Assembly: GCA_010093605.1 (NCBI GenBank)
Contig: MU004196.1
Location: 708,255 to 772,254 of the forward strand
Length of the DNA: 64,000 nucleotides
From: Lophium mytilinum
Taxonomy: Eukaryota > Ascomycota > Dothideomycetes > Mytilinidiales > Mytilinidiaceae
Reading direction: 5' to 3'
Shown: positions 928 through 56,526 of the stretch, in pieces
Position numbering within the stretch: position 1 is the first letter of the stretch
How the letters are laid out: every line of letters starts with the position of its first letter
The notes under the pieces: model-generated
The model's database searches: none
The model's input: the letters and a program-made list of their open reading frames with translations, nothing else
Told to the model about the DNA's origin: nothing
Made by a program: the position numbers and the translations under genes

Positions 928-2193
928 CGGTTGGTTCCCCATTGATATCTTTGCTGCTCCTGTTTTTTGGAGAATGGTACATATCCAGCCTCAATCTCCC
1001 GTGTATAAAAGTGCGGACGAGGTTTGGGGAAAGCAGGCTTGGAATTTTGCGTCAAATGGCTTCATTACATTTGATATGTTCTTGCGTGGTGGTTACGGCC
1101 TCGAGGACAGGAGGCGTTGCTGAATATGCAGGCAGCCGAGATCGTCGCGTGGATGAAACGAGGCGTTTAGGATTATTTCAACGTTTTGCGGTGTAACGGG
1201 AGCGAGCGGGGCCGTAGGTGCCACAGTAAATGCAGTTAAGACATGTAATGGTTGTTGATGGTGTCACGTCGCGCTGTTCTCACCTCGACTGTGACCTCGC
1301 GATCGAGTGATGGTCCTATGGCAACTGGACAAGCTTCTCCCTTTTCACAATCACGGGCCGAGCTGCATCTCATATCCCACCGCCAAGCCGCTCCATCTCC
1401 CCCGAATGGCTGCCGGATCGGAAGCTGAAGCTCATCTCGTCTCCATGCTCCATGAACCCTGCACACGACAACCCTAATCCAGCGATCACACCCTCTCTGC
1501 CAATCAGACCGGACACTGCATCGGGAGGCGTTAAGCTTTTGCGGCTTAAATACGCGAGCAAGGGGGACCCTTTCGTTGCTCGGACCCTCATATATCTCTT
1601 TGGGAAACCAGCGGATGCTCCCAGCGCGCTAGCTTCAGGGTGGCAGCAAGCCATGAGAGCCACCGAGTGTCTTCCAGCTGCTGTCTTCCTTTGCTCGATA
1701 GTTGAAGGATGCTGCGGATACGCGTCCTCGACGCATATCACATCACTTACCGCCCTTTTTGGAGGAAGGGATTGGATACGGACTTTCATAACTGGCATGC
1801 CAACCGGCTGCCGTGGCTCTCTCTCCTCATCATGCGATTCACGCTTTAGTGCTTCTGAGCGCCCGCTCGCACGGCCCCCTTTGAGGCGTGCCCCAGACTC
1901 GAGCGAGATTGAAAGTTTAAAATTCCGCGGGCCCCTTCCCGGAGCGCGGTCCTTGGCTTCTGCTTCGTGAACTCTCTTGTCCCGTCGTCGTTGTCTGCTC
2001 GATACCAAGTTTGCATTCTTTCTCATTCCATACCCTCTGACCCATCACTCGCTTTGGGTATTCTTAATAACAAATAAACTTTGCCTCCCATCATCCTATA
2101 CACTCGCTCGCTCTATCCAAGCTTGCTCTGCTTGCATTCCTCTTATACTTTACGCATATCAACACCGAGATTCTAGACCTGTTTACCGCCAAC
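906..2193. other. Intergenic, no gene recognised
   Basis: The 3' flank of the HECT ligase and upstream region of the GPI protein gene. Opposed ORFs of 172 and 218 codons here resemble no family I know and are treated as chance. The last 200 bases before 2194 are rich in C and T, as is common for leaders of well-expressed fungal genes. Confidence 0.5.
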
Positions 2194-2821
2194 ATGCGCT
2201 TCTTCGCAACCCTCGCTTTCTTCGCGACCGCTGGCCTCGTGGCCGCCCAAACGCAATCGTCTGCCGTCATGCCCAAGCCGACGACTGGAACCTGCGATGC
2301 GCAGAAGTCAGTCACATGCATCCCGATTCCAGCCCTCCGATAGCGTGTTACTAACACCCACCCCCAGCATCGTCGACGCCTGCGTCTCAGGCATCCAGCC
2401 GCAGATCACAGCCTGCGGCGGCAACGACTGGATCTGCCTCTGCCAGCAGTACACCAACCTGCTGACGTGCTACAACAACTGCCCCAACGACCCCAAAGGT
2501 GCGACGGTCCAGACCCAGGTGACGTCGTATTGTCAAGCTGCAGCTCCGTAAGTAGACCGTACTCTTTCAGTTAGTGTTGTTTGCTAATAAGTATGATGCA
2601 GGTACATCTCCGCCAGCCTCTCCGCCGCCGCCACCATGCCCCACTGGTCCTCGAGCGCGACGGCCTCCGCTACTGCCAACTCGGCTACGACTGGAACTGC
2701 GTCCAAGGCGACGGGTACGGCGGCTGCGGCGTCGGCGTCGTCGACGGGGGTGGCGGGAGTGGTTGTGGCGCCGGTTGGGGGCGTGCTTGCTGTTGTGCTT
2801 GGGCTTGTGGGGCTGTTGTAG
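2194..2821 (+). CDS. GPI-anchored cell-surface protein with eight cysteines (CFEM-like)
   Basis: Predicted 170-residue secreted protein; exons 2194-2306, 2368-2547 and 2602-2821. Residues 1-19 form a signal peptide (MRFFATLAFFATAGLVAAQ). A compact domain follows with eight cysteines, including WICLC and LTCYNNCPND. Next comes an Ala/Ser/Thr-rich stretch, and a hydrophobic tail ending VVLGLVGLL that fits a GPI attachment signal. Both introns have clear branch sites (TTACTAACAC, GCTAATAAG). The pattern resembles fungal GPI-anchored Ser/Thr-rich proteins and is CFEM-like in cysteine count, but I cannot confirm CFEM spacing. Likely location is the outer plasma membrane or wall. No enzymatic role is suggested. 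Confidence 0.85.
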
Positions 2822-4132: not shown

Positions 4133-6889
4133 ATGGCGAACGAAACCAGCGGGGACCACCATGTCGTATCAAGAGGTCCTGTCGTGCTGGGCGTTACAAC
4201 TGCCACGATCGTGTGCGCCACCGTCTTCGTTGTGCTACGTTTGATCTCGAGGATTGGAATTGTGCGAAGAGTTGGCTGGGATGACCACTTCATCATTCTC
4301 GCTTGGGTAGGTTAATCATGGGTTCGTAGTTTTGAGTATTGAGAAACTAACCGTAGCACTGTACAGGTCCTCGCATTCGGCACTTCTTTCTCCATTTGCT
4401 ACGGGACGTCCGTTGGCCTTGGACGACACGAGGTGGATGTTCCAGCAGACTGGGATCCTATTCTAACCAGGATGGAATATGTCTTCTCGGTTCTCTATGT
4501 CGGTACCCGTATTCCATGTGCTTGAAAAAGACACTGAGACAGGCAGAACCCAGCCTTGATGGCTACTAAGACGTCTATCCTGATCTTTTATTTGTCTCTT
4601 TCCAAGACCCAGAAGATCTTCCGTACCGCCACCATTGCGACCCTCGCCGTAGTCAATATTGGCGGATTAGCGTTGACGCTCCTCAATGTTGTCCAATGCC
4701 GACCTGTCGGTGCCGCTTTCGATAATCCGGTCCCGGAAAGTGCAACTTGCACAGACATTATTACCATTTACCTTTCTTCGGCGCCATTGAACATCATCAC
4801 GGATCTGGCAATTCTGTTCCTTCCAATGCCAATACTAACCAGTATGCGTCTGCCAAAGAAACAAAAGATAATACTCGTCGTCACCTTCGGGTTCGGTATT
4901 TTCGTCGCCGTTGTTGATGTAGTTCGAATTGCATACCTTCAATCCGCAGCTCGCACGCACCTGCGAAACGTTGAAGACAACAGTGACCCGACAGGAAATG
5001 ACTCCCGGAATTCGGAGAATGATTTCAGCTGGTATGCTTCTTTCTCGCTGATGTTTTCAGCCATCGAGGTAAATGTCGGACTCATGTGTGCCTGCGTGCC
5101 AGCCATGAAGCCCCTAGTGTCTCGCTTTATGCCTCACTTACTGCGGGACAATAGCCAAACCGATAAGACAGCACTCACGACTGGAAGCGGATTGAACCAC
5201 CCTGATATTGCAAATGGGAATCTACAGGCACCCTCTCAGGACTTACCAACAAGGCCAGCACCTGTTGCCACCCCCGGAGGCGCCAACCCAGCAGCCACGT
5301 TAGGAGCAATTTCAGGTGGAAATGGCGATGGGACAATGGGTATGATGGATTTCCTAACGACACCAGATATGACCGAGCTACCGGTAGAAAGGACGAATAC
5401 GTATGCGACGGCCGCTACAGCAGGGAGTGCTCCGCCCTTCTTCGACTTTGTGACATTTAACAAAAAGAAGAGCATTGTCAACATGACGACGAGGGAAAGC
5501 ATCTATCCAGTGATGATGGTCACCGTCTTGTTCTTCGTCTGGGGATTTGCATATGGACTCCTGGACACACTTAATGCTCAGTTCCAGACTGTTGCTCACA
5601 TGTCATCCGCACAGTTCATCGGTCTTCACAGCGCATACTATGGAGGCTATTTCTTGGGACCGCTGACTTTTGGCCGGCTCGTCTTCAAGTACTGGGGCTT
5701 CAAAGCTTGTTACACCGTTGGACTAGTCATATACGCGTGTGGCACTTTGGTCTTCTGGCCTTCTGCCGTTCTGACATCCTTTCCCGCTTTCTTCATCTCA
5801 AACTTCATTGTTGGCCTCGGCCTATCTACGCTGGAGATCTCAGCGAACCCTTTCATTACACTTTGTGGGCCGCCGGAATGGGCAGAGGTTCGACTCAATC
5901 TCTCTCAAGGCTTCCAAGCGATTGGGACCGTCGTTTCTCCGTTGCTCGCAAAGAAAGTTCTCTTCAAAGCCTCGGCCGACTCCCTCATCGACGTTCAATG
6001 GACCTATCTTGGCCTCTCGCTGTTTACATTTGCTCTCGCAATTGTTTACTTCTACATCCCCCTACCAGAAGCCAATGATGACGAGCTAGAAGAAGCATCT
6101 CAACGCATCAACACTCCAAATACGGAAAAGCTTCTCAACGTGAAAGTGATATGGATCACTCTTGGTCTTGGATTATTCTCTCAAATGTGCTACGTCGGTG
6201 GTCAAGAGAGCATTTCCACAACATTTGCGGCGTATGTCACCAGGATTTACCCAGGCCTCAACATGGTAAACCTCCAGGCAATCGGCCATACAGCCTTCGC
6301 CCTCTCGCGCTTCCTCGCTGCCGGTGCCGGATTATGGATCAAGCCACGCTACCAGCTCCTCTTTTTCTACCTCGGCGCTATTGCGTTCGCGGTAGCATCT
6401 ATGAATGGACATGGCACCGCACCTGCCGCGCTCGTCGTCACGCTCTTCTTCTTCGAAGGACCGATATTCGCCCTTGTCTTCGCGCAATCGATTCGTGGAC
6501 TTGGAAGGAATGCGAAAATGGCCAGCGTGCTACTCACCTCAGCGATAGGTGGCGGAGCAGTATTCCCTCCTATTGCATATGGTGCGATGAAGGCAAAGAA
6601 CGTGCAGTATGCGTATTGCGTGGTGGCGGCTGCATTTGCTGCTGGCGCTTTGTTCCCGATATGGCTGAATTTATCGCCTCTCGCAAAAGCGATAGTTGAT
6701 CCTAAGAAATATGACGATTCCCGAGCAGTCGGAGATGCGGGAATAGAAGTAGATGGGAAGAGACACCGGAGCTTCTCTTCATTTAGTGACAGTATTAAGA
6801 GGAGGTGGCGGAAGGACGGTGCCAAAGATGACCCTCCTCAAGCTGAGCACAAGGAGAGGAGCTCATGGCCGCCTGTCTCGATTGTATGA
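4133..6889 (+). CDS. Fusion membrane protein: rhodopsin (Pth11-like) domain joined to FHS-type MFS sugar transporter
   Basis: Predicted 882 residues; exons 4133-4306, 4367-4498 and 4547-6889. Residues about 15-300 form a fungal rhodopsin/Pth11-like seven-helix domain, with GWDDHFIILAW, LYNPALMATKTSIL after the second intron, the Cys-containing VVQCRPVGAAFD, and SAPLNIITDLAILFLPMP. A polar linker rich in Gly, Pro, Ala and Thr spans about 300-418. Residues about 420-840 form an MFS carrier of the fucose/glucose-galactose permease group: LFFVWGFAYGLLDTLNAQF, GLHSAYYGGYFLGPLTFGR, GLGLSTLEISANPF, EVRLNLSQGFQAIG. The basic tail is cytosolic in type. The junction lies inside one uninterrupted 2.3-kb exon, so the fusion is present in the DNA and is not a gene-model choice. 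Substrate, ligand and any sensing role are unknown; a receptor-transporter is inference. Start codon ATG 4133 is the only good one upstream. Confidence 0.85.
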
Positions 6890-7408: not shown

Positions 7409-8080
7409 ATGTTCGCACGACCAGCAATCTCTTCCGTATGCCCACTATCCCAATGCTTCATACTCCCTTTGGAACCCTTTCTAATTAGCTCAACTACAGG
7501 CTCTCCGGACAGCTACCCGCACCACACCTCTCATGCGCCCACTCCCCACACCCCGCTTCCTCACCCCGTTCCAAGCGCGCCTGCTCTCTTCCGAAACCCG
7601 CACCGCGATCGATAAGGCTGTGAGCTCGGCGCCTGTCGTGCTGTTCATGAAGGGCACCCCCGAGACGCCGCAGTGCGGGTTCTCGCGCGCGAGCATCCAG
7701 ATCCTGGGGATGCAGGGGGTGGATCCGGGGAAGTTTACGGCGTTTAATGTGCTGGAGGATGAGGAGTTGAGGGCTGGTGAGTTGCAGTTTTCTGCTTTGT
7801 AAACTGGGAGGGTTGGGGTGGGAGTGGATGGGGTTGAGGTGGCGTCGGCTGAAATTACATATGTATTGGTCGTTTGGATGCTAATCGTTTATTTTATGTT
7901 GTAGGGATTAAGGAATATTCAGAGTGGCCGACGATACCCCAGCTTTACGTGGATAAGGAGTTTGTGGGGGGCTGCGATATCTTGATGTCGATGCATCAGG
8001 ATGGGTCGCTGGCGAAGATGTTGGAGGAGAAGGGCGTGCTTGTTGAGCCGGGAGAAGAGGAGCCGGCGCCGAAGGAGTAG
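7409..8080 (+). CDS. GRX5: Monothiol glutaredoxin, mitochondrial (Grx5 type)
   Basis: Predicted 159 residues; exons 7409-7435, 7500-7776 and 7905-8080. The first coding exon is only nine codons. Residues 1-38 are basic and hydroxylated without acids, as in a mitochondrial presequence. The glutaredoxin fold follows, with [17 protein letters not shown] carrying the single active cysteine (about Cys68), then [23 protein letters not shown] with the conserved WPTIPQ and GGCD glutathione-binding elements. CGFS glutaredoxins of this group hold and transfer [2Fe-2S] clusters in mitochondrial Fe-S assembly. Length is usual for the family, with a short acidic tail ([11 protein letters not shown]). Function by homology; the presequence cleavage site is not determined. 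Confidence 0.93.
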
Positions 8081-11584: not shown

Positions 11585-12588
11585 GGCGGAAGCTGTCTGA
11601 GCTCGATCAAGGGGTGATGGGAGCTGTCGAGGGCGTAAAAAGCGGGGATTGGCGGTTCTAGAGTATCACACACAGGGAGAAGGTGAGTTGCAAGAAGGAG
11701 AGATAGATTTGGAGGCGTGGTTTTCACTGGAAAGATTCGACAACATTCGGCGGCGGGTGCTGATAACACTCCCGAGGAGACCAGGAGGCAGCCGGTGGAC
11801 CCCGATAGCAGCCAATGGCGCGCCCGCCCGGCAGCACTTGCGTCTGGAACGCTTGTGCTTCATAATCGAGCATCGCGTCACTTGGGGCGACCGTTGCGCA
11901 CTGTGAGGGGAGAGTCCTGCCGTGGCGGTTAAAGATTTGACGCATTATTCCAGGGTCTTTTTGAGGCTCAAGCAGCGTGGCAGCAGGGTCCAGAAGGTTT
12001 CCGGCTCGACGTCTGCCATGGCCACATGGAGAAGAGGGGAAGGCAATCTAGACGCCCAATCAAACGTCTTGCATTTCGCACTCTCTCGGCCATTCACAGT
12101 CTAGCTATTCCAATTCACGTGATAGAAAACGATACAGTCGGCTCCAATAGGATAGAGCAGAATAGCTTCAAACAGTGCGGTTAGCATAGCGCAAATACAG
12201 AAGAGGGGCGCCAGCTGAGTAGCCAATCAGGAGCCTTGCATTTCTCACTTGTCTCAACCGTTCCATATGAGGCTGTTCCAGTTCACGTGATGGTGAGTGT
12301 TACAGATCATTTCGTAGAGCACATATATTGGACAGGAGAATGTTTGGCTCTCCATTGGCTGATTACGCTCATCGATGTGAGATATTTCTGATGCACCCGA
12401 GCATTTCTTAATAGTGTATCACGATCTGTTGGGGTATTTTTGATACATTTATTTAGGGTAAGTTCTGATGATGTAAGCATCGGGATTTCTTTTCGCCGGT
12501 ATCCAGCTTCCGAACGATCATGCCACGAGTCAACGTGACGCCACCTTTAGCATCCTCTTTATGCAGCGTAACCACTCCCGAGATCAAG
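11585..12588. promoter_or_regulatory. Divergent intergenic of CCP1 and VFA1
   Basis: About 1 kb between two divergently transcribed genes. It holds CCAAT elements (11812-11816 and within each repeat copy) and a diverged tandem duplication with a CACGTG box in each copy, listed separately. TATA-like ATATATTGG near 12320. Promoter role is inferred from position only. Confidence 0.5.
12030..12367. repeat. Diverged tandem duplication, period about 168 bp, with CACGTG in each copy
   Basis: Copy 1 begins near 12030 and copy 2 near 12199. Shared landmarks in the same order and spacing are AGAAGAGGGG (12030, 12199), CCAATCA, CTTGCATTT, and TTCACGTGAT (12114, 12282). Offsets are 168-169 bp throughout. 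The copies have diverged considerably, so the duplication is old. It lies in the shared upstream region of CCP1 and VFA1. Confidence 0.7.
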
Positions 12589-13323
12589 ATGTCGCTTCCA
12601 AACATCTGGCATCACCGTCGGGTGGCTGAGAGCTCGGCGAAGGCATGCTGGATCTGCTACAAGCCCACTTCTAGCGTCCTTATTACACCAGATAACAAGG
12701 TAATCAAAACTAGCTGTCCTATATCGACAGCCAGCTTACAATTTCCAAGGACTTCTTTTATATCTGCGTTGGCCATCTCAAAGATCGGCAGTTTTGCCGA
12801 GCTGACGAGGATGAGGTTGCCGCTGCTGCGGCCAAGAAAGCTAAAGAAGAGCTCGATCGTGAGATCGAAAAGGTGAAGCAAGAATACGAGGAAAAGCAGA
12901 AACGAAAGAAAGAGAAGCGGAAAGAGAAAGCAAAGGAGAAGGGCAAAGACAAGGAGAAAGACAAAGATGCCAAAAAGAATGATGATGAAGAAGACACTAA
13001 AGATGAGAAGGCAAAGGATGACAAGGTGAACTCGCACAGACGCTCTCAGTCAAAGACGACTAATGATTCTTGATAAAGATCAAGCAGCTCTCTGAAGCCA
13101 AAGATGCTCCAAAAGCAGACGATGGACCACGCATCTATTCTCTCACGAAGTACGCTCTTGCCAGTTTCTAATCGAAGCATCGCGGATCGGCGACTGACTT
13201 GCCCTTAGGAATTTCTACCAAATGCGTGTTGACCGAATCCGAAACGCTGAGATTGCGAAACGGAGTAGAGAACGTCTTAAGAGCCCTACCGCTTTCCCAT
13301 CTGTGCCTAGCGGCGATCTCTGA
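12589..13323 (+). CDS. VFA1: Vps4-associated protein 1 (Vfa1) homologue
   Basis: Predicted 190 residues; exons 12589-12699, 12750-13025, 13079-13149 and 13209-13323. The N-terminus carries the family's zinc-binding signature: a CWICYKPTSSVL pair of cysteines, then FFYICVGHLKDRQFC. A very charged Lys/Glu helix follows (KAKEELDREIEKVKQEYEEK, then Lys/Asp-rich low complexity). The C-terminal region (RIYSLTKNFYQMR, RIRNAEIAKRSRERL, PTAFPSVPSGDL) matches the end that binds the Vps4 MIT domain in yeast. Known role: a regulator of the Vps4 ATPase in endosomal ESCRT recycling. An in-frame ATG at 12520 exists upstream, but the conserved MSLPNIWHHRRV start is chosen. Confidence 0.88.
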
Positions 13324-16300
13324 GCAGTATGGGGTCCGATTGCTTCACCATTGCCTATTTTTGGTCGCTATCAGTCCAAGCTGTCAATTACCTCATTCGC
13401 GGCGGCGGCCAAATCACTTGGCAGTTACCGTCCGCTTAATGCCACCAAACGATGCTCGTGTTCCTCTCACCCCCAGCCCTAAGATGCATTTGTAGGGAAA
13501 GAATATGCAGTCAGCAATTAGCGACCGACCACAAGGCCTACGCAGGCCAGAGCACAGGTGGTGTCGTACCAGAACGGCTCTGCGTTGTCTATGCTGCACA
13601 TCAGAACTTCGGAAGCGGATATTGATCCGCGTGCTGGGATAGCTAATCAATCCGGGCAGACAGCTCGCGTAGTATCCAAACAGCAGCCATTCTTCGGGTC
13701 AGACGACGACATGCTGACTGCATGCGGGGAAAAATGCGGGGATTTTAGTGTTGTTTCACGGTCAGTCGTCTTCTCATACAAATCTGATCATTTCCACAAG
13801 TCCAATGTGATAAATCTGTTGCGGATGGAGTCTTGGCTGTCTCATTGAGCGCTTGCTTGATCCGAGATCCTGAAGAGCACACTCGCGACCTTGCGGAGAT
13901 CCCACATTGGCACACGCATGCTCTTCGAGAGGCTGTCCGTGCTTCTGCACCCTATCTGTTTACTTTCCTGTTGAGTTTCATTGTGCTTCGCAACAGTTAG
14001 AGCATTCGCCTAGCTTGATGTGCCGCGGGATCACAGAAGTCACCCTTTGCACACGAAGGCATGCCATCCAGGCCGCCTAGCTACCTGATCGAATGTATTC
14101 ACCCGAACTTGATTCCCTGCACTCAACACTGATCATAGTTGGGAACACGTCGAACAGCTTGGTACCAACTCCAATTTTATCCAGCATCTCTGGGTATGCC
14201 TACAGGTGAAGCGAAGAACTAGCACGACGGAGCTATTTGTGAAGGGACCACGTCTTGAAATATGATCAGGCACCATGTTTATCTTTCAATGAAGAATCGC
14301 AACCCAGCGGCTTACGTACTCCCGCTCTCCGCCCATATTGCTAGCATTCATGGCCAGCGCGCAATCTCTGCAGAGCTCGTCTTATCTGGGTGCTTTAATC
14401 CAGTTGCCCAAGGCGACACCAAATGCTATGGAACGAGGTGTGAAGATCACTGGAGACTCTGCCGACAATGGCCACAAGGCAGTGGACGTTGGGACGTTGG
14501 GACGTTCTCCACATCGGTATGAAATCTCGTTTCGAGAGAAGTACCCAGATCTTCATACGACAGAACGACTTGTCAAGACTCGAAGCTGAGGATCTTCCCA
14601 AGGAAGACAGCCTTTTCATGCTGGTTAGACTCGAGGTTACACAGCAGGTTGCTTGACCATCCACAGCATCATGCGTGGTTGGGTTTAGCTGCTCGGTCAC
14701 AAAGCTAGCAGGCCCTCCAACGCTGAGCCTGCAGCTACAACAGCGCTCCTAGCTGATGTGTCTTCCCGAAAGCTTGATATTTGCAGATGATCAGCAGAAG
14801 TCGTTTGTGGATATATGTCCGATTGGCAGAAGGCGCGGGACGGCAGAAATTTCTTTTCCGAAGCATCTAGCTCTAGGTGCAGCTCCCTGCAAAGCGACGA
14901 GCCCCTCGAACACCTGCAGGTCTGCAGAGTTACCTAGCGCCTTCAAAACTCTTCCAGTATGGTACTCCAGGGCACTCGAGGCGGTCAAGAAGCAGGACGC
15001 CACCAAGTCGTCTCTGCCTTTCTTCGCTATATGCAGAAGAAGGCCTCGTCTGCTTCGCCAACAACGGGCTCCACAAGTCTACCTGATGGGACCATACGAC
15101 CAATGAAGGGCGTGGCGCGAGCTCAAGCGATCGCATAATCCTAGAATGGCACGAGGGACAGACGCCACGCCACCTGGCACGCGGATCTTGGGAGTTGTGT
15201 GGACGGGGAAGCTGGTTCAGAGTTCCGCCTTGCCATGCCAAGCCATGCACCAGCTCCCCCAAACTGCAGGCCTCTAGGCGCGGGAGGCCTGTGGTATCAC
15301 GATATCGACGTTTTGGTAATGGAAATGTCTTGGCCACTCTCTACTCCGGCGAATACTCTTAGGCGAACAACCAACTCCCTCCCAACCTGGCCCTGAGGTA
15401 TTGGGAACAACCTCGATGCCAAACCGAGACCCTGGAAGGGTTCCTTACCCTATTCTAGCTCGATGATAGCGTGGACCCTCTCTGACATTCACGGAGAATA
15501 CTCCGAGTGAATCTCAGAGCCAGCGCTGGGAGCGAGCGCTGGGAAGCGAGCTCTAGGCTTAGCGACGCTCAATCACAAAATGAAATATCCGTGCTGGAAT
15601 GCAGCTTGCTGAACTGCACTGCGTAATTACATGTTTCTGTACCGGAGAGCAAGTATTTTCGGGCCATCGGTCGGATGTGCGCCCAGCATTACTCGATCCG
15701 AGTCGTCTCCCTACTGCCATCAATGAACACGGGACGGGGCGCCAGAGCATCCGTGGGCGCCGAACCGCAAACCCATGGAGTTTCGGTGACGTTCACATTC
15801 GAAATGCTGGACTGCATGTTCAGCCCAGGGCCTTGATTCGAGGGCGGCCGTGTTGGCACTATATACAGCAGGTCTCTCGGGATTCCCCTGATTGTCATAT
15901 CACAGCAATTTATACATACCTCGGATAGGGCTTATTACAATGACCTCACTTTGGTTACTCTGCTCACAAGCATTTTCCAAACCTGTGCCCTCCTACCAGG
16001 GAACAGGCCAGGCTGGGTATGTATGTCTCACCCTCTCCATGTCGGAGGAGCAACAAGCATCAATCTAGCTCCTCCCCCATCCCCTCCCCCACGTCTGCCA
16101 AGCATGCCCGTCCGCTCGGCCTCGCCGTCACCCAATCGATATTTTCAATTCCCATGTCGAATCCTGGAGAAAAATGCTCAAACGGGCGTCCTGCATTCCA
16201 CCGCATTCCCGCACCCTGTATTGTGTTTTGGCGGTGGGAGGGATTAGGGTGGTAGAGGGAGGATAATTCTCCGATGTCGGTCTAGCGTGTGCGACGTTGA

Positions 16301-18504
16301 CGACCTGGGAGGCCTGGTATCATGGCGATGATTGCTGGTGAAGGCAAATCGAACTGGCGTTTCCGTAAGGCCACCCGCTGCATACTTCGCGTAGACGCGG
16401 GACGAACCCACACCCGCACCGTCGACAAGCGGCACCGAAGCGCCACAACGGCACGCACCTTTTCACCGTCTGCAAGGCTGAAGCTCCGCTTCGGTGAAGC
16501 TCTGGATGGGTGATCGTCACACCGTCGTACCGCGTATCGCCAAAACCGCACAGTTCAAGGAAAGTCCTCGCATGACGTTCAGGCCAGCAGCACGCGATTT
16601 CTGATTTGCCCGTGCTACCACCACCGCCCGACATCTGACAGCGATCCCCACAAATTCTTGTATGGGAAGTGTTGTGAGTAGAGTGTCACAAGCTGTGTCA
16701 GCCCACGCCTGGATCCCAGATAATCACCTGACACCACCGGGGGGCCGAGATCCGGCGATCTGAGATCCATCCCATCGTATCGAATGTTACCCAGAGCCAA
16801 GGCGCTCGCCCCCAGATCTAGCAGCCCGTCCCATCGCTATTCCTGCCCCTTCAAGTCATTTTTTTTTCTCGCTGGGACGTTGAGAGAAGGCCAGGCCCTT
16901 GGGTGGAGACGGTCGTTTGCGTATTATGGGTACGGCGCGCGTAAGGCGCCCAGCCCTACGCGGGCTCCGGAGTCTGCGGTCTCTCTGCATTGCGATGGAG
17001 AAAGGAATTGTCGGTCTGTGATGCGACCGTCGCATCGCATATACCTGTCCACAAACGCGTGCATGTGTCCATCGCTCCGTTCAGGTTTTGCAACCAAACC
17101 TCGCACTTCCTTGCATTTGGGCCTGTGCGGAAGCGGCAACGATCATTTGGACATGGCCGGTACACAAATTGTCCTCTTACCAGCACCTCCCCTCCTCCCG
17201 CCGCCATCAGCACAGACGCTGTCAAAGAGAGCGTTGCGCTCGCGGGGCAGCGAGTCTTCCCATGCGATTGTGAGACATAAGCGCTAGCTGCGAGCGGGTC
17301 AGGCGCGCGTTTAGGCCTGGCGTAGGGGCCTGGCGAAGCCTGTCAGCTCCCATCAGCAGGGAGCCATGAGTAAAATGCACCCAACTGGGACTACTGCGTG
17401 CAGTAGCTCGCGAGGGGGCTTGGCGAGCGGTGCACGTTCTGAGTAGGTGTGAGACATTGGGATGTGTGTTGTGATACAGGTTGATGGAACTACTGGCCCT
17501 GAAGACAGGAAACTCATTTTTGCGGCTTATTGATTCTTGGTCGGGCGGTGGGTGAGCTGGGATATGGCGGTGATGTTGAGGCTGTGGAGTGCTCACCGGT
17601 TGGCTGGAGCGATCGTCTGTCTTCCTGTTTTGGGGTTGAGCTCGGTAGGCGACTGGTGATGAGACCTGGGATGCTCACCGGTTTAGCGATTTGCGCAACA
17701 CAACGTGCCGCGAATGTCTCGGAACGGCATCCATTTTGGGAACGCTAGCGTGCTGAATAAGGCACCAGTATCAGTAAACCACTGCCGCTTTCTCGTATTG
17801 GCGAGCCAAGAGGACGCAATTAGTAGTATTTCGCCGACCAGGAGAGGAACCAGGCCTTTGACAAACATTCATTTTTAGATTACGTGATACGATACGTAAA
17901 TTTGTAGCGCACTTCGGCGGCGGTAGAGACGTGTGTATGAGGTATGTGTGTGCTTTGCTGAGACACACATCAAAAGCCAAGTGTAAGTCGGGCAGAGCGA
18001 AGACAAGCACGGTCTGTGAAGAGACCACCATCCCCAGCAAACATGACACCGGAGATGCAACAATCCAACCAAAACAGCAAAACAGCCCAGTGCTGGAACA
18101 TGCTCCGAGACAAAGCCAAAACAATCCCGTTCACCCTCGCGAAGAATAAAACAAGTGTACGCCGTCGTGAACGTCATGATGAGAGAGTTGTGTAGAGTAC
18201 TTTATGGAGAAAAAGCAAGGCCCTGCTGGGCGGTCGAGAGCCAGCCAAGGCAGGGGTGTGAAAATTGACGAATGTTTTTCGCTTGAATCGAGGCATGCAG
18301 AATAAAAGGTCTAGGCCTCTGGTGAATGAAGCCACCGAGAAGAACCCTAGAAAAGAAACAAGACCGCCGGCTCCATAGAAAAAGACCAAGTCCAACCTAT
18401 GGTGGAGATGTCGAAGTTTTGGAGATGAAACAAAGCGCTTAGATCAAATGCATTGATGAATGAATGCTCGCTCAATCAATCGACGAACCGCGATAACCCC
18501 CATC
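13324..18504. other. 5.2-kb stretch without a recognisable gene
   Basis: Lies between the converging VFA1 and C2H2 genes. Many short ORFs occur on both strands, none longer than about 170 codons and none with family resemblance. I could not assemble exons into a convincing protein. A small direct repeat (period 8, GACGTTGG) is at 14485-14506. Poly-T of nine at 16859-16867. It may hold 3' UTRs, lost genes or non-coding transcripts; the sequence does not decide. Confidence 0.4.
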
Positions 18505-20727
18505 TCATGACTCGTCGTGGACCTCGTCGATTACGCCCGGCTTCGATGCCGATGCCAACAGCCCCCCGGCAGATGAGCCGCTGAGGGAGCCTACGGATGA
18601 CACCCTCTCCTTGGGTGGGGGTTCGTCCTTCATGCACGCGTTCTCCAGCATGTTGGTCCACTTTCCGCTGGTCCCGGCATGGCTGTGTTTCAGGTGTTGC
18701 CGGAAATGATCGGCGCGGAAGAACTTCTTTGCTTGGTTGCACTCGCCGAACTTGTGCACGTGATTCAGGTGTTCGGACCGGGCTGGCCAGTCGGCAGGAT
18801 TGGGGAACTCGTCGCCGCAGTACCCGCACACATCGGCGAGGGCTGGGCGTGCCGAAGAGGGGTGAAATGCGCCCTCGACGCTGGAAAGCGCAGCGCAGGA
18901 CCACGAATGCCGCCGTAGATGCAGTGAATTCTGGTGCCGCTCGGCCTCGTTCTTGTTCTTGAAGCGGTTCGAGCAGTACGCGCACGTGTACTGCTTTTCG
19001 AGCTCGTGGATTCTGGGCACGTCAGCGATACAGCACAGTCAAGGGATAGCGGGTCTAGTTGAGGGCTTACCGTAGCTCGTCCTCGGTGTCGAACTTCTTG
19101 GGCTTCTTGGGACAGCACTCGCAGATCAAGTTGCCCTGGATGCGCTGGACGCCGCTGTTCTGGCGCGAGTGCGAGAGGCTGGCGTCCGACATGGTGCGGT
19201 GGTGCGGCTCGTGGTCGGACGGGCCTCGCTGGTGTTGCGGTCGAGACAGAGATGCCCGGGGACTGGGGTTGAGCGACCTACTAGCCGTAAACGGCGAGAC
19301 GGCGCCAAACTCTGATTCTACCGAGGGCGAGAGGGCTCCAGGCGACAGACGTTGCTCTCCGCCGTTGTAACTCGTCGCGCTCGATGCGACCGACAGCCCA
19401 TACGACGACGCAAACGACCCCGTGCGCTGGCTCAGCGACGACGCCGACGAGAGTGACCCCTGGTTTGCGTGGAAGCGCGACACGGGTGAGTTGCGGTTCA
19501 CCAGCATCTGGGCAGACCGCCGGTGGTACAGGTCGTTACCGCCTCCTGTGAGCGGCCGGTCATCCCGCGCCGCTTCGGAGGGCGGTGATGACGCCCGCCG
19601 CTTGATGCCTGCCTTGGAGCCGGGGTACTCGTCGGACCCTGCAGGGCTGCGGTCGTTGATGTTCAGGTCGCGCAGACCGCTGTCCTCCATACCGAATTCC
19701 TGCTCTGAGAAAACGCTGACGTCGAAGCTCTGGTGCCTGGGATGGGCCGACACGCTCTCTTCCACGGTTGAGGGGGTCGACAGGCTGCCGTACCGCCGTG
19801 GGTGGGTGCTGTCGTAGCTGGGGTCGAATCCTGGACTGCGGAATCCCGAATGCCCAGGCGACACCCCTCCTGACGGTGTCCACCGGGATATGGGTGAATC
19901 GAGCGACGAGTACAGGCGGTCGGGCACCGAGAGGGGTTTCAATTGCCCGTTGAGTTTGTTTAGAGTATTGTGGGGGACGGTTGAGTTTTCCTGTGCGCTA
20001 GAGGAGAACAGGCCGGAGTTGGATGTTCTTGTAGGAGTATTCGGGCCGCCAATCTTGGATAGGAGCTGTTTGTCGTATGCGTGGGAGGAGTTCTGCAGAG
20101 TCTGCTTGCCAAGCTGGCTTTCGCTGGTGAATCTGCGGGTCATGGTGGACATGTTAGCGTTCATGTTGCAGTCTGGAGTATTACGGGGCGGACGAGCCAC
20201 GCCTTGTGCGCGTGCCAGTGGCGACTGGTGGAAGTCGACGGATAGGAAGGGAATGCATACCGGTGGTTTCCCAACGACGGGCGCGCTGGACCGCGGTCCT
20301 CGTCACTGCGATCCGAGCTGTCGGTGTTCATGTCCACGTCAAAGGAGCGCGACGACGCACTCTCGCGCCGGGCATGGCCATATGCATAGCGGTCGCCGTC
20401 CGACCTGTGGTGCTGCACCTGACCAATGCCGCCTCCACCGCCCAGCAGACTCGACCCAGGCTTCACCGAGGCGGCCGATCTCCCGAAGCCTGCGCCGTTG
20501 GGACTGTGGGTATTACCCCACTGCCAGCCCGGGTCTTGGCCCTCAGCGAGCTCGCCAATGTAACGTGGAGGAGGTAAGGGCGGCGGCGGGCTCTCACGAG
20601 CATTTGGAATCGCCATGGGGACTCCTGAGGCGGCGTAGGAAGAGCGGCGCGGTAGCGAGTACCGGTTGTGGTGCGGCGCCGAGTCATATACGCGAATAGA
20701 CGGTGTCGATGTTGTTGCGTGCGACAT
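18505..20727 (-). CDS. C2H2-type zinc-finger protein, probable transcription factor
   Basis: Predicted 678 residues; exons, in coding order, 20727-20261, 20132-19071 and 19012-18505. The first two-thirds are low-complexity, rich in Ser, Pro, Gly and Arg (RRSSYAASGVP, ESPPPPLPPPRYIGELAEG), and look disordered. Zinc-binding segments lie in the C-terminal third: ICECCPKKPKKF; YTCAYCSNRFKNKNEAERH ending in an H-x4-H pair; VCGYCGDEFPNPADW with EHLNHVH; and FGECNQAKKFF with HFRQHLKHSH. The block HAGTSGKWTNMLENACM follows. These spacings fit tandem C2H2 fingers, several atypical. DNA binding is inferred. An in-frame ATG at 20787 would add 20 residues; 20727 is preferred. Its upstream region is GC-rich and shared with YVH1. 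Confidence 0.85.
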
Positions 20728-23426
20728 GGCGACGAGGAGCAGGGGGCTTTTAGAGTTGCCACCAGCTGAGTTTGTGAGCGGGCCCAAAGTGGCAATACTA
20801 ATCCACGGCGACTCGACGCTTCAGCGCTTAAGGGACGGCAGCAGCAGCCACGAAGCCACGGGGGGCCCGAAGCAGCACGCAGGCACACAAATAGGCCGCG
20901 AGCCGCCAGGTGGGTCGGGCAGCGGGCGGCGGATGGGCGTGCCTCAGGGATGAGGGCAGTGGAGGGTGGTGTGGACGGCGAGGCGGGCTGGAGGCGTTGA
21001 GTTCGTGATACCGGGGACTGGAGGACAGGAGATTAGCGGACTTTTGGATTTCGGCCTCAGCCCTACGAGGCTGGACAGTGCCGGCTGAAGAAACGCACCC
21101 GCCTGGGCCGCACAGCCACGCCGCGGAGCTACGCCTAGGGCAGAAGGCCTCGAGGAGTCTGGAGTGCGCGTCGTCGGCAGGCTCATGCGGGTAGCGTGCT
21201 CGCGGTGCGTTCGCTGCAGTGGCCACGGCGCATGGGCAGCACGCCGGCCATTCGAAGCAGCCCGGGGACCAGAGAGGGCGGCGATGCTGCTGGCCGCGAG
21301 TGTGCGGGTCCGGTGGCGCGTCGTGGGTGGGTGAGGCTCGGGAGCAGCAGAGTCAGGGGAGAGACAGCAGCTGTCACGGCGAGCAGACGAGGTGCATAGA
21401 GAGCAAGACAGCACAAGACAACAGGCGGCGAGAGGTGAGGGGCGGTCCGATGCGTTTGAGAGAGCGGTGCTGCGTCCAACGGTACATATTCATAAGAGGG
21501 GACCGCCATAAGCTCGCTTTTCCGCCAAAGGCTGCTCCGTGCCCATCGCCTGGGGGGTCCTCCCAGCCGCTAAACGGCGCGGATTGGCCCTCTCTGCGCA
21601 CCGAACGCACTGGAGGGCGGCAGGGGAGTGCCTTGGTGTGCAGGCCTCAACTCGAGCTTTCCAGAAGGCGTGCAGAATCCCGCAGGGCCAGCGAATGCTG
21701 TCGAGTCAACTGCCTGCGGCCGGCAGCAGCACGCTTCTCGAGCAGCGATGCATCCAGCACTTCGTCCGCGCCCAGCAAGGCCCCGGCCACCCGCCAGAGG
21801 GCTGTTTCAAGATGACGGCGAGCATTCCCGGCAGCGTGGGACCTCAGTACTGTCAGCCTGGCCCTCATCTCGGGGCTCCAGCGCGCCCGCTCATCCGCTG
21901 CTGCAACCCGTCTGGGAGCACGGCCAAGCCCACCGACTACCCAGGCGCGCGCCCTCGCTCCAACGCTGTGTGGGGACACGGACACGGTGACAGGGCTCGC
22001 GGTCGACGGTCGATGGTCGACGACAGTGAAGCGCCGGCGAGACGTCTCGGGCGGCACAACTTGGGCGTGGCCAGCGGCATGCACTCATGGCGTCGTATCG
22101 TGAAGGCGCCGACGCTGTGCAAGACGGGCCGTGGCCAGCAGACGGTGCAGAAAAGCTGAGGGCGACGCGGTGAGGACGGATGCACGAAGCTCGCTGAGGT
22201 GCATGCGAAGACGGCCTTACAACTGCTAGCGCCCACGACCCAGGGTCCCTCCCAAGGCTCTAGCGACTCCTTCAGCCTTACGGGCGTTACTGGCGGCCGA
22301 TATCAAAAGCGTCGACTCGTGGACCGTGGGACTCGATTCGATGCCCCCTCACGCTGCCAGCCTCGGGGTCGACCACACAACCACAACGCCGTTCTTGTGC
22401 AACACCACCCAAAGCACCCCCGCCCTTGAACGCTGATCGCTGGATCGCCGCCGCTGCATCGTCTCAAACGCTGTCGGCGTGCTGGCGGGCGAATAGCGGT
22501 GGCGGTGCCCCATCCGGTGCATCGTGCCACTCACCACTCGTTATGGCCCGGCAGCCCTGCTCTCCGTCCAGGCTCTTGACCCCATGCTGACCATCTCTTG
22601 AACTCGACGCTTGGATGAAACAACGGAAGATGGACGTAGGATAGAGGCAGAATACGCAGGATAGATGCAGGAAGCCCTACGCTTAGCGGGAGAAGCCGGC
22701 TGTCCTGCGAACTCGTCGTCCTCTTCGGGCATGGGGTCCCAGGTTCCCCAGACGTGCCGCAACTGACGCCGGCTGACCACTTGGGTCGGCCAGGGATGCA
22801 ACGGTGAGATAGATTGACGGGCACATTCACCAACCGCGAGACAGGCCTCATGCTGGACGTGACACGGCTGCAGGCGTGACAATCGCCGGCTTCCACGGTT
22901 CGCGCTGCAGATGTGAGGGCTGCTAGCGCCTCTCGTGATGCCGAGCCAGAAAAAGCGGACACGGCACGCCGCGCACAAGCAAGGAGACCCCCGACATAGA
23001 GAGCTTCGGTGCACGGGAGCTGGCGCCCTGAGCCGTCTGTGGCGCGCTCAGATCCTCAGCCCTATCACGGCCTGATCGGCTTCCTGGTCGGCGGCGTGCC
23101 GCAAAGGCACCGCACCGGGCGCCGAACCGAATGCTCGCAGGCAGGTTTTGCCTACTGTTTCGGTGCCTCTGCCGTCTCCACGCTCCAATTGCCGGCGCGG
23201 GAGGCAAGGGAAATTTGTTGCGGTGTGGGAAAGTCGCCTGGCAGCGCCAAAGCGGGCGTCTCATCCGCGCTCTAGAGATTACGGCTTGAACGCCCACACA
23301 CGAGCCTCGGCCAATGTTGGACCAGCGAAAAACGCTGATTCACCAGGCGACGTCTGCCCATCATCGCCAGGCCACACGCGGGAGTCTCCCCCTCTGGAGT
23401 ACGCAATACTGCAATCTCCGACTGCG
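20728..23426. promoter_or_regulatory. GC-rich divergent intergenic, C2H2 gene and YVH1
   Basis: About 2.7 kb between divergent genes, richer in G and C than the coding flanks. Several ORFs of 100-200 codons occur on both strands, a normal effect of GC-rich DNA; none resembles a protein family. Likely contains long leaders or promoters. No tRNA or repeat seen. Confidence 0.4.
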
Positions 23427-24864
23427 ATGGCCCTGCTCGACAGAGTCCCCGGCGATCTGAAGCTGTACATTGGCGGGTGCGTCGCTAACCTCCACTGGGC
23501 CATCATGCCCGTCCTCCACACACGCCTCACAGATCCGTCACTGACGCGTCCACGATTGCTATAGGCTGTTCACCCTCCGCCGCCGCGATGCACTGGAGGA
23601 AGCCGGCGTTACTCACGTCCTGTCGGTGCTGCGGCTGCCGCTCGATCAGCGGCTCTTCGTGCCGTTCAAGCACATGGTCGTCGAGGTGGACGACGTCGAG
23701 GATGAGAACCTGCTGGAGCACTTCCCGGCCACCAACCAGTTCATCCAGGAGGGTCTTGACGCTGGTGGCGGCGTCCTTGTGCACTGGTGAGTCCACACCC
23801 TGGTGCAGCTGAGCGCCGCATGTCCAACTATTGATCGCCACCCCGGACTTCTCTTCTTGGCAATATCGCCATCCTCAAAAGCAACAAGCTGTCATTGTGT
23901 CATACCGCAGCGTGCATGCAAGCCCCTTTCTGCGTCTCCTCTTGTTTCTGTGCTTGCCGTCTTGTTTTGCTCGCACGTTTCTGTGCTCAAGCTGGGATAT
24001 CCTTCCATCTTACTTTCTGTCTTTCACATGCCGAAAATACTCATACACACCGCTCGTTTGCCACTATTTTCAAGATGCCAACTTTTATTTCCCCTCTAGT
24101 GCAATGGGCAAATCCCGGTCCGCAACCTGTGTTATCGCCTACCTGATGCAACACCACAATATTTCCGCCGAAGAAGCTTTGTCCCACGTACGGGAGGCAC
24201 GCGCGATCTGCGAGCCAAATTCGGGATTCATGAGCCAATTAGAGCTGTACGGGAGCATGCGCACTCCTGAAAATGTTGAGGAGTCGCCAGCATACCAGCG
24301 TTGGGTATTTCAACGGGAGGTTGAGCTGTCCCGAGCGTGTGGACAAGCGCCTGATGCCGAGAAGATCAGGTTTGAAGATGAGCATACTTCTCAAGACTCC
24401 GTTGACTATGAGCTACGCTGTCGCAAGTGCAGGTAGGACTCCATAATGCTTGCCACGATGCTTTTCACATCAAATCACAGATTAAGCTTACTATATTTAG
24501 GCGAACACTGGCAACATCTCAATACCTCACTCAGCACGGGTCTGCATCCTCAAACTCAAACCCTTCCAAAGTTCGTCCATGTGCACATTATTTCCTAGAC
24601 CCACTCTCGTGGATGCGTCCAGAACTCGAACAAGGCAAGCTAGATGGACGCCTCGAATGTCCCAAATGCCACACCAATGTGGGCAAGTACGCGTGGCAAG
24701 GCATGCAATGCAGTTGTAGCGAGTGGATCTTACCCGCCATCAGCCTGTCGAAGAGCCGAATCGACGAGGTGAAGCCACAGTCATCTGCTGCTACCGGTAT
24801 ACGACGACCTCCAGGAACAATCGTCGCGCCACCAAGCCGAGGCCCGCCGAAAGAGAGTTTGTAG
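23427..24864 (+). CDS. YVH1: Dual-specificity protein phosphatase Yvh1
   Basis: Predicted 322 residues; exons 23427-23476, 23565-23786, 24100-24432 and 24501-24864. The catalytic domain (about 10-160) has the dual-specificity loop HCAMGKSRS, with Cys91 and Arg97, and acidic VEVDDVEDENLLEHFP for the general-acid loop. The C-terminal zinc-binding domain shows RCRKCRRTLATSQYL, HYFLDPLSWM, LECPKCHTNVGKYAW and CSCSEWILPA. In yeast Yvh1 releases Mrt4 during late 60S ribosome assembly, a role needing the zinc domain more than catalysis. The Cys91 codon is split TG|T by a 313-nt intron (23787-24099), the longest in the window. If retained, translation stops one codon after the His (TGG TGA). Confidence 0.93.
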
Positions 24865-26820
24865 GGCTGTAAGGCAAAGTATAAATTACACTGGACAACT
24901 AGCGCGATAACAGCGTCGGCGCATCCAGCCTAATAGTATCTAGTGTTAGAAGGCCTGGATGGATGTTGGATTCGAGTTCGCTTATAGGGTCTCTCTTTCG
25001 ATTAGCCTCAAAGATCTCCCAGCCGTCTCCTCTTCGGATTTCGGAGTCCCAGTCAAGCGGTTTCAGTTCGAAAGCTATTGACGTCAGCCCGCAGTCTGCA
25101 CGTCTGAACTTACGTTTCTGGGTACCTTATGAGAGGCTATTCAAAGTTTCTTTTGATCCGGAAGCTCTGATCGTATGTCGACGCATTGCCGTATCGCACT
25201 AGCGCTCGCACCAGAATGAAACCGCAACATAGAACCTAGAAAAGAATGAGGGGGCAATCAATATCCATAAAGCATCAGTATACCCAATTATCATCCTTTG
25301 TAAAGGTCGACCACGTCTTCTAATTGGATGGCATTCGCGATTTGACAAGCCGAAAAGAGCAAATGCTTAAATAAACGTCCGAAGATAGACCGCTGGGTAG
25401 GACGTCGCAAGGCTAGCATCATCCTACTAACCACGTCACGGTCTATCATTGAATAGCATCTGCCTACTAACCACACTACGCGAATCTTGAGCACGTTTGC
25501 TTGCACCTTATGGCCCCAAATGGCCGTTCGCGTTGTATGGCTGCGTTGAGTTACTCCCCACAGCAAACACGACGCACTACGTGATATTTCCTTATTCCGG
25601 CAAAGCGCGTAAGACTCCTCCACACTTAAGATCTTACACGCGTGTGAAGGATGCAGCCATGTGTCGTTTCAGCCTTTACATGGCTAGTCGTTCAGCGATC
25701 GTCCACCATGTGCGCCGCCAACACTTGGCGTTAGTGATTCGCGATTACTCGGAGTAAGCATTGTGCTCATTGGGCTTCGTATGGGAAATGCCAAAGTCAG
25801 CCTTATGGATGTTGGCCCATGAGTATTAGTCGCCGTTCGCGACCTGTGTAGGCAATGCAGGAGGGAGTAGTATGACGCGCAATCTCCGATTCTCTGACAA
25901 AATGTCTAAAAATCCGAGGGCCGCGACTGCACGGTAATTTGGAATCCCCAGATAATCTTCTACCCCAGACGACCCCTGCTCTCGGAGCCCCGCACAATGG
26001 GTTTACCCTTAATGGATACAGTCCGAGTACTGACATCGATCGTGATCGCACAAAAGCCTGCATCGGGATGAAGATCCGAGCTTTGCGGATGGATACCACA
26101 GTGCAGGTTGCCTAGCCGCTAACGAGTCAACATACATTCCTACCTATCTACTGTAGGCAAGATGAAGGTGATTGGGATGCAGCTCAGAAGCAAGAAAGCA
26201 TGCGGCCCGGATGTGCGGGCATTCCGGATATGAGATAATGATAACATTATCCTGCGCATATATATAGAATGCTATATACAAGCTTTTAATAAGCAAGCTT
26301 GGCGCGGGAAGATGTTGGGACCGGGTATTAATTTCATGTTTTGCATTAGGGCCATATAGAGGCGTATCATGAGATATGTATCTGACTTGGATGAATCATC
26401 AACTGAAAACAAAAGGGCTGTGAAGGGCTGCAAAGGTTCCGAACATGCTTGAGTCGTTGATCCACGTGACTGCGGGAAGGGCTGAGAAGCTCGAGCCTTC
26501 CCGCTAAAACCATCTCGAGCCACGGGAGCCACCTACGATGCGTCACGAGAAAATACAGACATCATCAAGAAGCTCCACTGGACATGACTGTACGTGTCTA
26601 TGAAATCTAAGTATCTACAAATAGGCCACAGGGCGGTGCTGCGTACCTCTCACACTCATCAATTTTTCTCTACTCAAGCATTTGCATCTCCTTTAACCAA
26701 AGTCAACGTGTCGTGCAGTAAGTGAAGCTATAATTGAGACTGAAACGAATGAGCACTTACCCCTTTGAAGAACCGCAAACCTCTTTCAAAAATACCAATC
26801 TCCTGTTCTCAACTTTCACA
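24865..26820. other. Intergenic, nothing recognised
   Basis: The 3' flank of YVH1 and upstream region of the TatD gene. Contains AT-rich patches (for example TATATATAGAATGC near 26260). No ORF with family resemblance and no RNA gene recognised. Confidence 0.45.
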
Positions 26821-28029
26821 ATGTCTCAAAACGCATCTGCTTCAGCATCAGGGCCCGCCCCGGCCGAGGAAGGGGATAGCTCTCAGAAGCTACGATACGT
26901 TGATGTTTGTCCGCCTATCCACGTTTCCCATACGTCGAGTCTTCTAAAAAGTCATATATTAGATTGGTATCAACCTCGGTGACCCCGTATTCCGCGGCAA
27001 ATACCACGGCAAGCAAAGCCACCAGGACGACTTCACAGACGTTCTCCAGCGGGCTCTAGACGCTGGCTGCAAGAAACTGATGGTCACGGGGTCCGATCTA
27101 AAAGAGTCTCGCCATGCCGTCGAAATCGCTAAGCAACATCGTCCGTGTACAATTCCCCAATGCCATTTGTCGTAGACTAACGACCTCCGCAGCCGGACTC
27201 TGTTACGCTACAGTCGGCGTCCATCCATGCTCCGCAAAGCACTTCGACTCCCACCGCGACGGCCCCGCGGCTTTACTCGCCGCCATCGGCGACCTCGCTC
27301 GCAGCTCCAAGGCAGCCGGCCACACCGTCGCCTTCGGAGAAATCGGATTGGACTACGACCGCCTATTCCTCACCCCTAAAGACCAGCAGCTCAAATACTT
27401 CGAGGCGCAGCTCGACCTCGCGGTGGACATCCAGCTCCCCCTATTCCTGCATTCCCGAGCCGCGAGCGAGGATTTCGAGAGACTGCTCGCTGCGAAACTG
27501 CCCCAGCTGCCGAAGAAGGGGTTGGTGCACAGCTTTACTGGCACCGCTGAGGAGATGAAGCGGATGGTGGAGCTGGGGTTGGATGTTGGGGTCAATGGGT
27601 GCAGTATGAAGACGGAGGAGAACGTTGAGGTGGTTAGGCAGATTCCGCTTGAGCATTTGCAGATCGAGACGGACGGGCCTTGGGTGGGTGATCCCGGACT
27701 TTAGCGCTAATGGGCTTTGCTGATGGGTGTTCAGTGCGAGATGCGTCCCAGCCATGCATCGGCGAAGTTCCTCCAGGACGCGCCTCCGCTGCCAAAGGCG
27801 GTCAAGAAAGAGAGGTGGACGCAGGGTGTTATGATCAAGGGACGGAATGAGCCGGCAACGATACCGCATGTTGCGTATGCGATTGCGAGGATAAAAGACA
27901 TCTCGGTAGAGGAGGTTTGCGAAGCGTAAGTGCACAGCGGGCCACATTCGAATATCTCTTGCTAATTCTAATCACAGTGCGTGGCGTAATTCGATCAAAA
28001 TGTTCGGATTGGGAGAGAAAATAGAATAG
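26821..28029 (+). CDS. TatD-type metal-dependent nuclease
   Basis: Predicted 331 residues; exons 26821-26904, 26963-27140, 27193-27683, 27735-27925 and 27978-28029. It belongs to the TatD/YBL055C group of TIM-barrel nucleases (3'-5' exonuclease and endonuclease, metal-dependent). Motifs in order: YVDIGINLGDPVFRGKYHGK, VTGSDLKES, ATVGVHPC, AFGEIGLDYDR (metal-binding Glu), LPLFLHSRAA (metal-binding His), KGLVHSFTGT, and IETDGPWCEMRPSH with the conserved Asp. Length is as usual. Intron 2 has a weak donor (GTCCGT) but restores the conserved frame. An ATG at 26734 is in frame upstream and would add 29 residues; the shorter start is chosen because the extension is not conserved-looking. Confidence 0.9.
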
Positions 28030-55406: not shown

Positions 55407-55763
55407 GTCGTGAGAGTCTGATAGCGTAGTAGATGTAATGATATGTGATCCAGAGCTTCATTAGCAGATTTCAGATTCAAAGTGATTGGTGATGATGAGT
55501 ATATGAGCAATGACAAAGTAGAGAAGAGTACTGGAAAACTGGTCGTTATGCATTTTTAGTGTGTCAAACTTTCTATGTAGTCACAAATATTGACTATAAA
55601 ATCCTTGAAGCCGAAGGGAGCACTTTTCGTCTTCTTCGGCCCTCTATTCCATACTTATGCGGGCCTCTGTAGCCTGAAGTGCCACCGCACGCGTGGTCAG
55701 AAAGACCCGCACGTAAAGTAAAGCCCTCGAGGGCATGGATTGGGTGTCTTCCGAGCAGCCACC
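55407..55763. other. Convergent intergenic
   Basis: Tail-to-tail interval between the SDR gene and the DUF1857 gene. Nothing recognised. Confidence 0.5.
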
Positions 55764-56526
55764 TCATTTGATGCGCCCATCCTTGACCATCTCCCTGATC
55801 GTATCGATAGACCCCTCAACAGCCATCTTCGCCATCTGTTCAACGTGTTAGCCAGTCCCTTTACTCGCTCGATATCGCCGCCATCCGTCCCGCAGCTAAT
55901 AACCATCCGGGCAATCAAAAGCCAGTCCGACATCATACGCAGATTTCCAAAAGAGCATTTGGCCTCCCTCGCCGCGATGAAAAAGCAGAATGAAGCAAAC
56001 CACCACACACTAAAAAAAGAGACACTCACAGCCTTCACCTTCGCATACCTCTCCCCGGCCTCCTCACTCCCCTCCTCCAACTCCGGAAAAATCCACTCAA
56101 ACATATACGTCATATGCAAATCCTCCACCCCCCCACTCGGCCCATCCGAAATCAGATTCCGAATAATAGACCCATCTTCCTGCTTGAACTCAACCTATAA
56201 CACCACCCATCGTTAGCATCAACGTTCCTTTTCCCAGCCGTTGATGGATTAGGTAGGATAGGCACACGTACCCACGCGTTCCCAAAACTCGTCACGACCT
56301 CCTTCGCGCTCGGCGCGGCGCCCATCCCGGGCTTGAACTGCACGACGCGCGTGACGACGCCCGCGGCGTCTTCGGAGAGCACGTCGCAGGATGTGATGGC
56401 GGAGACGAATTCTTGCGCGAAGCGGATCTTGCGCTGCAGGCCGGCCCAGACTTGGGGGACGGTGAGGACGGGGGTGGCGGAGGGGGGGTTGATGGGGGCC
56501 GTGTAGGCGAGGTGGAAGTTGACCAT
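55764..56526 (-). CDS. DUF1857 (AtaL-like, SRPBCC-fold) protein
   Basis: Predicted 163 residues; exons, in coding order, 56526-56272, 56194-56030 and 55835-55764. The start MVNFHLAYTAPIN and the block VPQVWAGLQRKIRFAQEFV are typical of the DUF1857 family, as are SCDVLSEDAAGVVTRVVQF, VEFKQEDGSIIRNLISDGP, DLHMTYMFEWIFPEL and the last helix EGSIDTIREMVKDGRI. The fold is a helix-grip that could bind a hydrophobic ligand. Some members sit in secondary-metabolite clusters; here no such cluster is visible. Intron 2 is long for this window (194 nt) and exon 3 is only 24 codons. Confidence 0.82.

Follow-up and report, generated by a model that had tools for sequence, protein, structure and literature searches.

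Results

Gene structure of the locus

The window, by which we mean the whole stretch of 64,000 nucleotides analysed here (contig C16, positions 708255-772254 of the Lophium mytilinum genome), carries on its forward strand a gene that combines, in one reading frame, a Pth11-like 7TM domain with an FHS-type MFS carrier. The genome comprises 43.18 Mb in 24 contigs, and C16 reaches at least 1,342,328 bases. The listing of open frames revealed 783 codons from stop to stop at 4538-6889 (+) without an internal stop, and a spliced model with two introns covers 4133-6889 and encodes 882 residues (Table 1). Since no in-frame stop occurs from 4547 to 6886 and the 7TM half is not closed by a stop codon, any transcript of the receptor half reads into the carrier, barring an unseen frame-shifting intron. 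The choice of the second intron follows the PF20684 score, which is 202.1 bits with 4499-4546 and 196.4 bits with 4503-4553, the alternative model being scored from its first 321 residues only. As the fusion lies wholly inside exon 3, it is unaffected by this choice.

Table 1. Features of the fused Pth11-like/FHS gene, in window positions.
Feature	Position	Strand	Content	Basis
Start ATG of the fused gene	4133	+	context CCAACATGGC, presumably fitting the fungal start consensus	
Exon 1	4133..4306	+	N-terminus, TM1, cytoplasmic loop 1 with GWDD, start of TM2	sequence, translation, hydropathy
PF20684 fungal rhodopsin (Pth11-like) domain	4235..5125	+	residues 35-295; span includes both introns	coordinates by hand
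Intron 1	4307..4366	+	canonical; GTAGGT...CTAAC...TACAG	sequence, model enumeration
Exon 2	4367..4498	+	TM2 to start of TM3; alternative end 4502 with acceptor 4553	
Intron 2	4499..4546	+	weak donor GTCGGT; uncertain, alternative 4503-4553	
Exon 3	4547..6889	+	remaining 7TM domain, linker, FHS carrier, C-terminal tail, stop	open frame, Pfam
Linker part 1, putative Pth11-like cytoplasmic tail	5126..5335	+	residues 296-365 (70 residues)	
Linker part 2, proposed former FHS N-terminus	5336..5494	+	residues 366-418; in-frame ATG at 5336	
FHS-type MFS carrier	5495..6706	+		3O7Q match, MFS_1, hydropathy; end boundary our own
Asp442, equivalent of FucP Asp46	5564..5566	+		alignments
Glu532, equivalent of FucP Glu135	5834..5836	+		alignments
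Hydrophilic C-terminal tail and stop codon	6707..6889	+		sequence, codon scores, hydropathy

Directly downstream of the fused gene lies a monothiol glutaredoxin-like gene (7409-8080, +, limits set by eye) with a PF00462 match in the frame 7485-7802. The upstream frame 2177-2551 (+) gave no Pfam match; we take its cysteine pattern to resemble that of small fungal proteins which are secreted or GPI-anchored. The window holds one more transporter, an amino acid transporter frame at 48754-49827 (-) with PF01490. No match to a family of sugar catabolism was obtained in the ten neighbouring frames scanned with Pfam. Several long frames are found at about 12000-29000, the longest with 411 aa at 19070-20302 (-), and the frame 55700-56194 (-) matches PF08982 (AtaL, the acetylaranotin cluster protein L family).

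The 7TM domain and the carrier

Exon 3 alone is sufficient to recognise both domains with Pfam: PF20684 (Fung_rhodopsin) is matched at 2.6e-43 over profile positions 69-237 of 237, and MFS_1 is over its cut-off at 5.8e-15. In the 882-residue model PF20684 becomes complete (profile 1-237 of 237, 1.2e-59, 202.1 bits against a gathering cut-off of 27), and MFS_1 occupies residues 429-748. The comparison of the carrier with E. coli FucP (3O7Q) gave an E-value of 2.4e-33, with carrier residues 3-387 aligned to residues 25-428 of the chain. The original prediction had named a Pth11-like domain and a carrier of the FHS type in a single exon (4547-6889) stop-free across both, and these claims are borne out by the Pfam and 3O7Q matches and by the 783-codon frame. 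Its assignment of the fourth to seventh helices to this exon was slightly off, as the exon begins inside helix 3 according to simple hydropathy.

By the same simple hydropathy, seven hydrophobic peaks precede the linker, 136 residues without a peak follow, and 11 of the expected 12 helices are called in the carrier, the second carrier helix being the missed one. Counted as lysine plus arginine, the loops of the 7TM domain contain 4, 3 and 4 charges where an inside position is expected and 2, 1 and 4 where an outside position is expected. The third outer loop, with as many charges as the inner loops, fits this topology poorly, and the charges broadly fit a cytoplasmic location of loops 1-3 and the linker. 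The 7TM part should end inside, where MFS carriers begin, so that the join would require no extra helix. With its complete PF20684 domain, seven hydrophobic helices predicted from hydropathy and a hydrophilic tail, the N-terminal half resembles the Pth11-like (class 14) 7TM proteins and is possibly a working receptor; it differs from them in that the tail continues into a transporter instead of ending. Pfam reported no CFEM match in the 882-residue protein, a domain described as present in only 4.1% of class 14 proteins (PMC12842992).

The carrier half resembles the FHS family (TC 2.A.1.7; FucP, RhtA) in that the 3O7Q match extends over nearly the whole carrier and the equivalents of FucP Asp46 and Glu135 are kept. 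Both residues are reported to have roles in proton coupling and substrate recognition (PMC3824880), and the role of Asp46 is treated in a further report as well (PMC4882079). In contrast to FucP and RhtA, the fused protein has an N-terminal 7TM domain, and it has Gly in place of FucP Asn43 and Phe in place of FucP Tyr365. These two exchanges, together with Gln in place of Asn162, are found alike in all three fungal FHS proteins compared here. The NCBIfam models scored below their cut-offs with the exon-3 protein (TIGR00885 fucP 147.9 against 280.4 bits; TIGR01272 gluP 77.7 against 202.55 bits), so that the substrate of the carrier cannot be named, and FucP equivalog identity was rejected on the former score. 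RhtA of Aspergillus niger, the only fungal FHS carrier with a functional characterisation that we encountered, is reported to carry L-rhamnose and, more slowly, D-fructose; the hexose-transporter-null yeast EBY.VW4000 was used for it, in the plate assay described there L-fucose did not compete, and the same report describes the FucP domain structure as well represented in fungi (PMC5161314). Transport of a hexose or deoxyhexose together with protons is most likely retained by the carrier half.

The linker and the join

Between the end of PF20684 (residue 295) and the start of the FHS carrier (residue 419) there are 123 residues, in agreement with the linker of about 120 residues that had been predicted. 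The linker is polar and rich in Thr, Ala, Pro and Gly. Its first part can be compared with the tails of stand-alone Pth11-like proteins: in the 18 frames of this genome which reach the end of the profile, tails counted as open frame to the first stop, and thus assuming no intron, are 74-207 residues long with a median of 112.5. Its second part begins with the ATG at 5336, which has a good context (GGGACAATGGG). From this Met to the motif TTRESI we counted 50 residues by hand, and from the first ATG of a stand-alone FHS paralogue on contig C13 to its motif TTRQSI 51 residues; Met-Gly begins both. Since nine in-frame ATGs are present at 5105-5516, that at 5336 among them, this match with the start of the paralogue is weak evidence; the similarity is moreover short, and the N-terminus of a second paralogue, on contig C6, is much shorter. 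The simplest reading is that the linker would consist of the receptor tail and the original N-terminus of the carrier, with the intergenic DNA lost.

The codon score per codon is near zero in the true frame of the linker (+0.039), too weak to count for or against coding, compared with +0.198 and +0.229 in the flanking domains and +0.094 in one antisense frame. Since the undoubtedly coding C-terminal tail has an even lower value (-0.112), the score is no guide to polar stretches. Among 20,000 simulated sequences of 363 nt with the dinucleotide steps of the linker itself, 109 were stop-free in the given frame. The openness of the linker alone is therefore moderate evidence, whereas a frame of 783 codons with a domain on each side is strong evidence; a chance open frame was rejected. 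A structure model of the exon-3 protein, computed from the single sequence, was of low confidence with a mean pLDDT of 38.1.

Relatives of both halves in the same genome

Scoring of 150 out of 158 candidates resulted in 138 PF20684 matches, which correspond to about 92 loci after merging of matches within 1000 bp on one strand, a large set of Pth11-like genes. Apart from the gene in the window, none of the other 137 matches has a frame of more than 487 aa. In the 1.5-kb 3' flanks of 30 of these roughly 92 loci, that of the window included, no second many-helix extension was detected. Three of the flagged loci (L012, L013, L020) were rejected, as we read their frames as the rest of the helices of the 7TM domain itself; another (L019), where a frame of 99 aa some 1 kb downstream had raised the flag, was not taken as a fusion, no domain being assigned to this frame. 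The other loci, about 62, were judged by open-frame length alone, and an intron could hide a fusion there. The genome-wide search for MFS_1 covered 9 of 544 candidates.

Two FHS relatives of the carrier half were found, at C13:1427849-1429137 and C6:2256863-2258258. Neither is adjoined by one of the 138 PF20684 matches, the nearest being about 23 kb (C6) and more than 100 kb (C13) away, and these two stand-alone genes show that FHS carriers in this genome are not generally fused. Over 435 alignment columns the carrier half of the fused protein shares 182 identities with the C13 paralogue and 162 with the C6 paralogue, and the two paralogues share 237 with each other. FucP served as outgroup for pairwise comparisons over 391 columns. 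Between the fused half and C13, the fused half alone retains 28 FucP-like residues and C13 alone 58; the corresponding numbers are 35 and 44 for the fused half and C6, and 45 and 24 for C13 and C6. A ratio of 28 to 58 is unlikely to arise by chance (chi-square about 10.5, calculated by hand), whereas this does not hold for 35 to 44. As C6 also lost more than C13, rapid divergence is not confined to the fused half. The branch of the fused carrier half has a length of 1.38, compared to 0.32 and 0.47 for the paralogues, in a tree with the distant FucP as outgroup and an unsupported inner fork. Out of 14 FucP positions inspected, three (G82, L318, S362) differ in the fused half but not in its paralogues. 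On these alignments the fused carrier is an old or fast-changing branch with the acidic pair kept; having diverged, it may be altered in transport or may have lost it.

Discussion

It is confirmed that one stop-free frame holds both domains in this genome. We consider it most likely, with a probability of about 0.72, that this frame belongs to a fused gene which yields the Pth11-like 7TM domain and the FHS carrier as one chain. Such a gene would have arisen when a separate Pth11-like 7TM gene and a gene for an FHS sugar-proton symporter became a single frame by loss of the DNA between them, including the stop codon of the first gene and the promoter of the second. The predicted product, about 882 residues long, would be a single chain with 19 helices and the N-terminus outside, followed by seven helices, the cytoplasmic linker and a 12-helix carrier with both ends cytoplasmic. 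A 7TM module would thus be carried in the same chain as a sugar-transporting half.

Whether the halves would work together is a separate matter. In one version of this explanation they are independent, the 7TM part is a passenger of the one-piece chain and the carrier transports like its relatives. This version has a good chance of being right, if somewhat less than an even one. It agrees with the two stand-alone FHS paralogues, with the lack of any further recognisable fused pair among the 30 loci whose 3' flanks were read, and with the polar Thr/Ala/Pro/Gly linker of more than 120 residues, which does not by itself suggest tight coupling. On the other hand, both halves are still open and complete, and the strong divergence of the carrier from its paralogues is compatible with a changed role just as with relaxed constraint. 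We regard more tentatively, as possible but with the odds clearly against it, a 19-helix receptor-transporter acting as one unit and having arisen independently of GPR155/LYCHOS, in which binding or flux at the carrier would act through the 7TM part on G-protein signalling, or ligands of the 7TM part would set the rate of uptake. That the 7TM module regulates or reports uptake appears unlikely to a similar, marginally greater degree.

The good-context ATG at 5336 could start a separate carrier and speaks against the single chain, as do the weak codon scores of the linker; the charges of the third outer loop and the divergence of the carrier half also count against the favoured explanation. An internal promoter would then give rise to two products, the fusion not being the main protein, and the position of this ATG close to that of the start in the C13 paralogue is in line with such an arrangement. 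Yet the 7TM half lacks a stop, so that its own transcript would still enter the carrier, and only 210 nt, all of them open, lie between the 7TM domain and the ATG. Furthermore, a motif search of 5000-5560 detected no AATAAA, ATTAAA, TATA-type, CCAAT or long CT-run motif. Taken together, we judge two products to be improbable.

The same low probability is given to a receptor derived from a transporter, in which the carrier half would have lost transport and would form the ligand-binding part of a sensor. Its branch is the longest of the three fungal ones, the C13 paralogue alone retains about twice as many FucP-like residues as the fused half alone, and the three positions changed only in the fused half point in the same direction. 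Against this, the equivalents of Asp46 and Glu135 are kept, the difference to the C6 paralogue is small, and the tree is limited by the distance of FucP as outgroup and by its unsupported inner fork. An assembly error joining two separate genes is highly improbable, as such a join must preserve one frame over 783 codons and land in the linker, and the window is located deep within contig C16 of a genome in few contigs.

Returning to a single fused chain, the nearest working parallel is GPR155/LYCHOS of animals, which combines a PIN-like transporter and a 7TM domain in one chain of 17 helices (PMC11574030; PMC12716839). The likeness consists in one chain with a transporter-like and a 7TM domain, and features described as its own are the transporter in first position, its PIN-like type, a C-terminal DEP domain, the lysosomal location and cholesterol sensing (PMC11574030; PMC12716839). 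PF20684 and MFS_1 are the sole Pfam matches of the fused protein (E up to 1 for exon 3 and up to 0.001 for the 882 residues), with neither a PIN-like nor a DEP domain among them; membership in GPR155/LYCHOS was rejected for this reason. A 7TM domain with a C-terminal module is likewise described for the GPCR-kinases of oomycetes, amoebozoans and choanoflagellates (PMC12716839) and for a rhodopsin-guanylyl cyclase from one fungus (PMC4046227), but there the module is an enzyme. The yeast transceptors Gap1 and Pho84 are reported to unite transport and signalling in one protein, with the difference that signalling arises from the transporter itself (PMC3824880).

Among the literature matches listed, no title or opening of an abstract reported a Pth11-like/MFS fusion, which is weak evidence that none has been described, since subscription literature lies mostly outside these matches. 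We know of no separate 7TM receptor domain in the Gap1 and Pho84 transceptors. Pattern searches for relatives of the fusion returned none from 13 matches in a collection of viral contigs and none from 121 matches in a collection of genome contigs, which are not fungal and have no bearing on its conservation.

Pth11-like proteins, at 29.6%, outnumbered every other receptor class in a survey of 1357 fungi; the filter described there retained hits with more than 75% coverage of query and target and, one class excepted, only proteins with 6-7 helices (PMC12842992). A 19-helix chain would be removed by this filter, so the silence of the survey means little. Surveys limited to 6-7-helix proteins would overlook such fused chains in general. 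To our knowledge, the ligands of Pth11-like proteins are largely unknown, and their natural occurrence in one frame with a sugar carrier points to both a ligand class and a physical partner for them. As a second hybrid of a 7TM domain and a transporter besides GPR155, built from unrelated families, it would suggest that this pairing has been favoured more than once.
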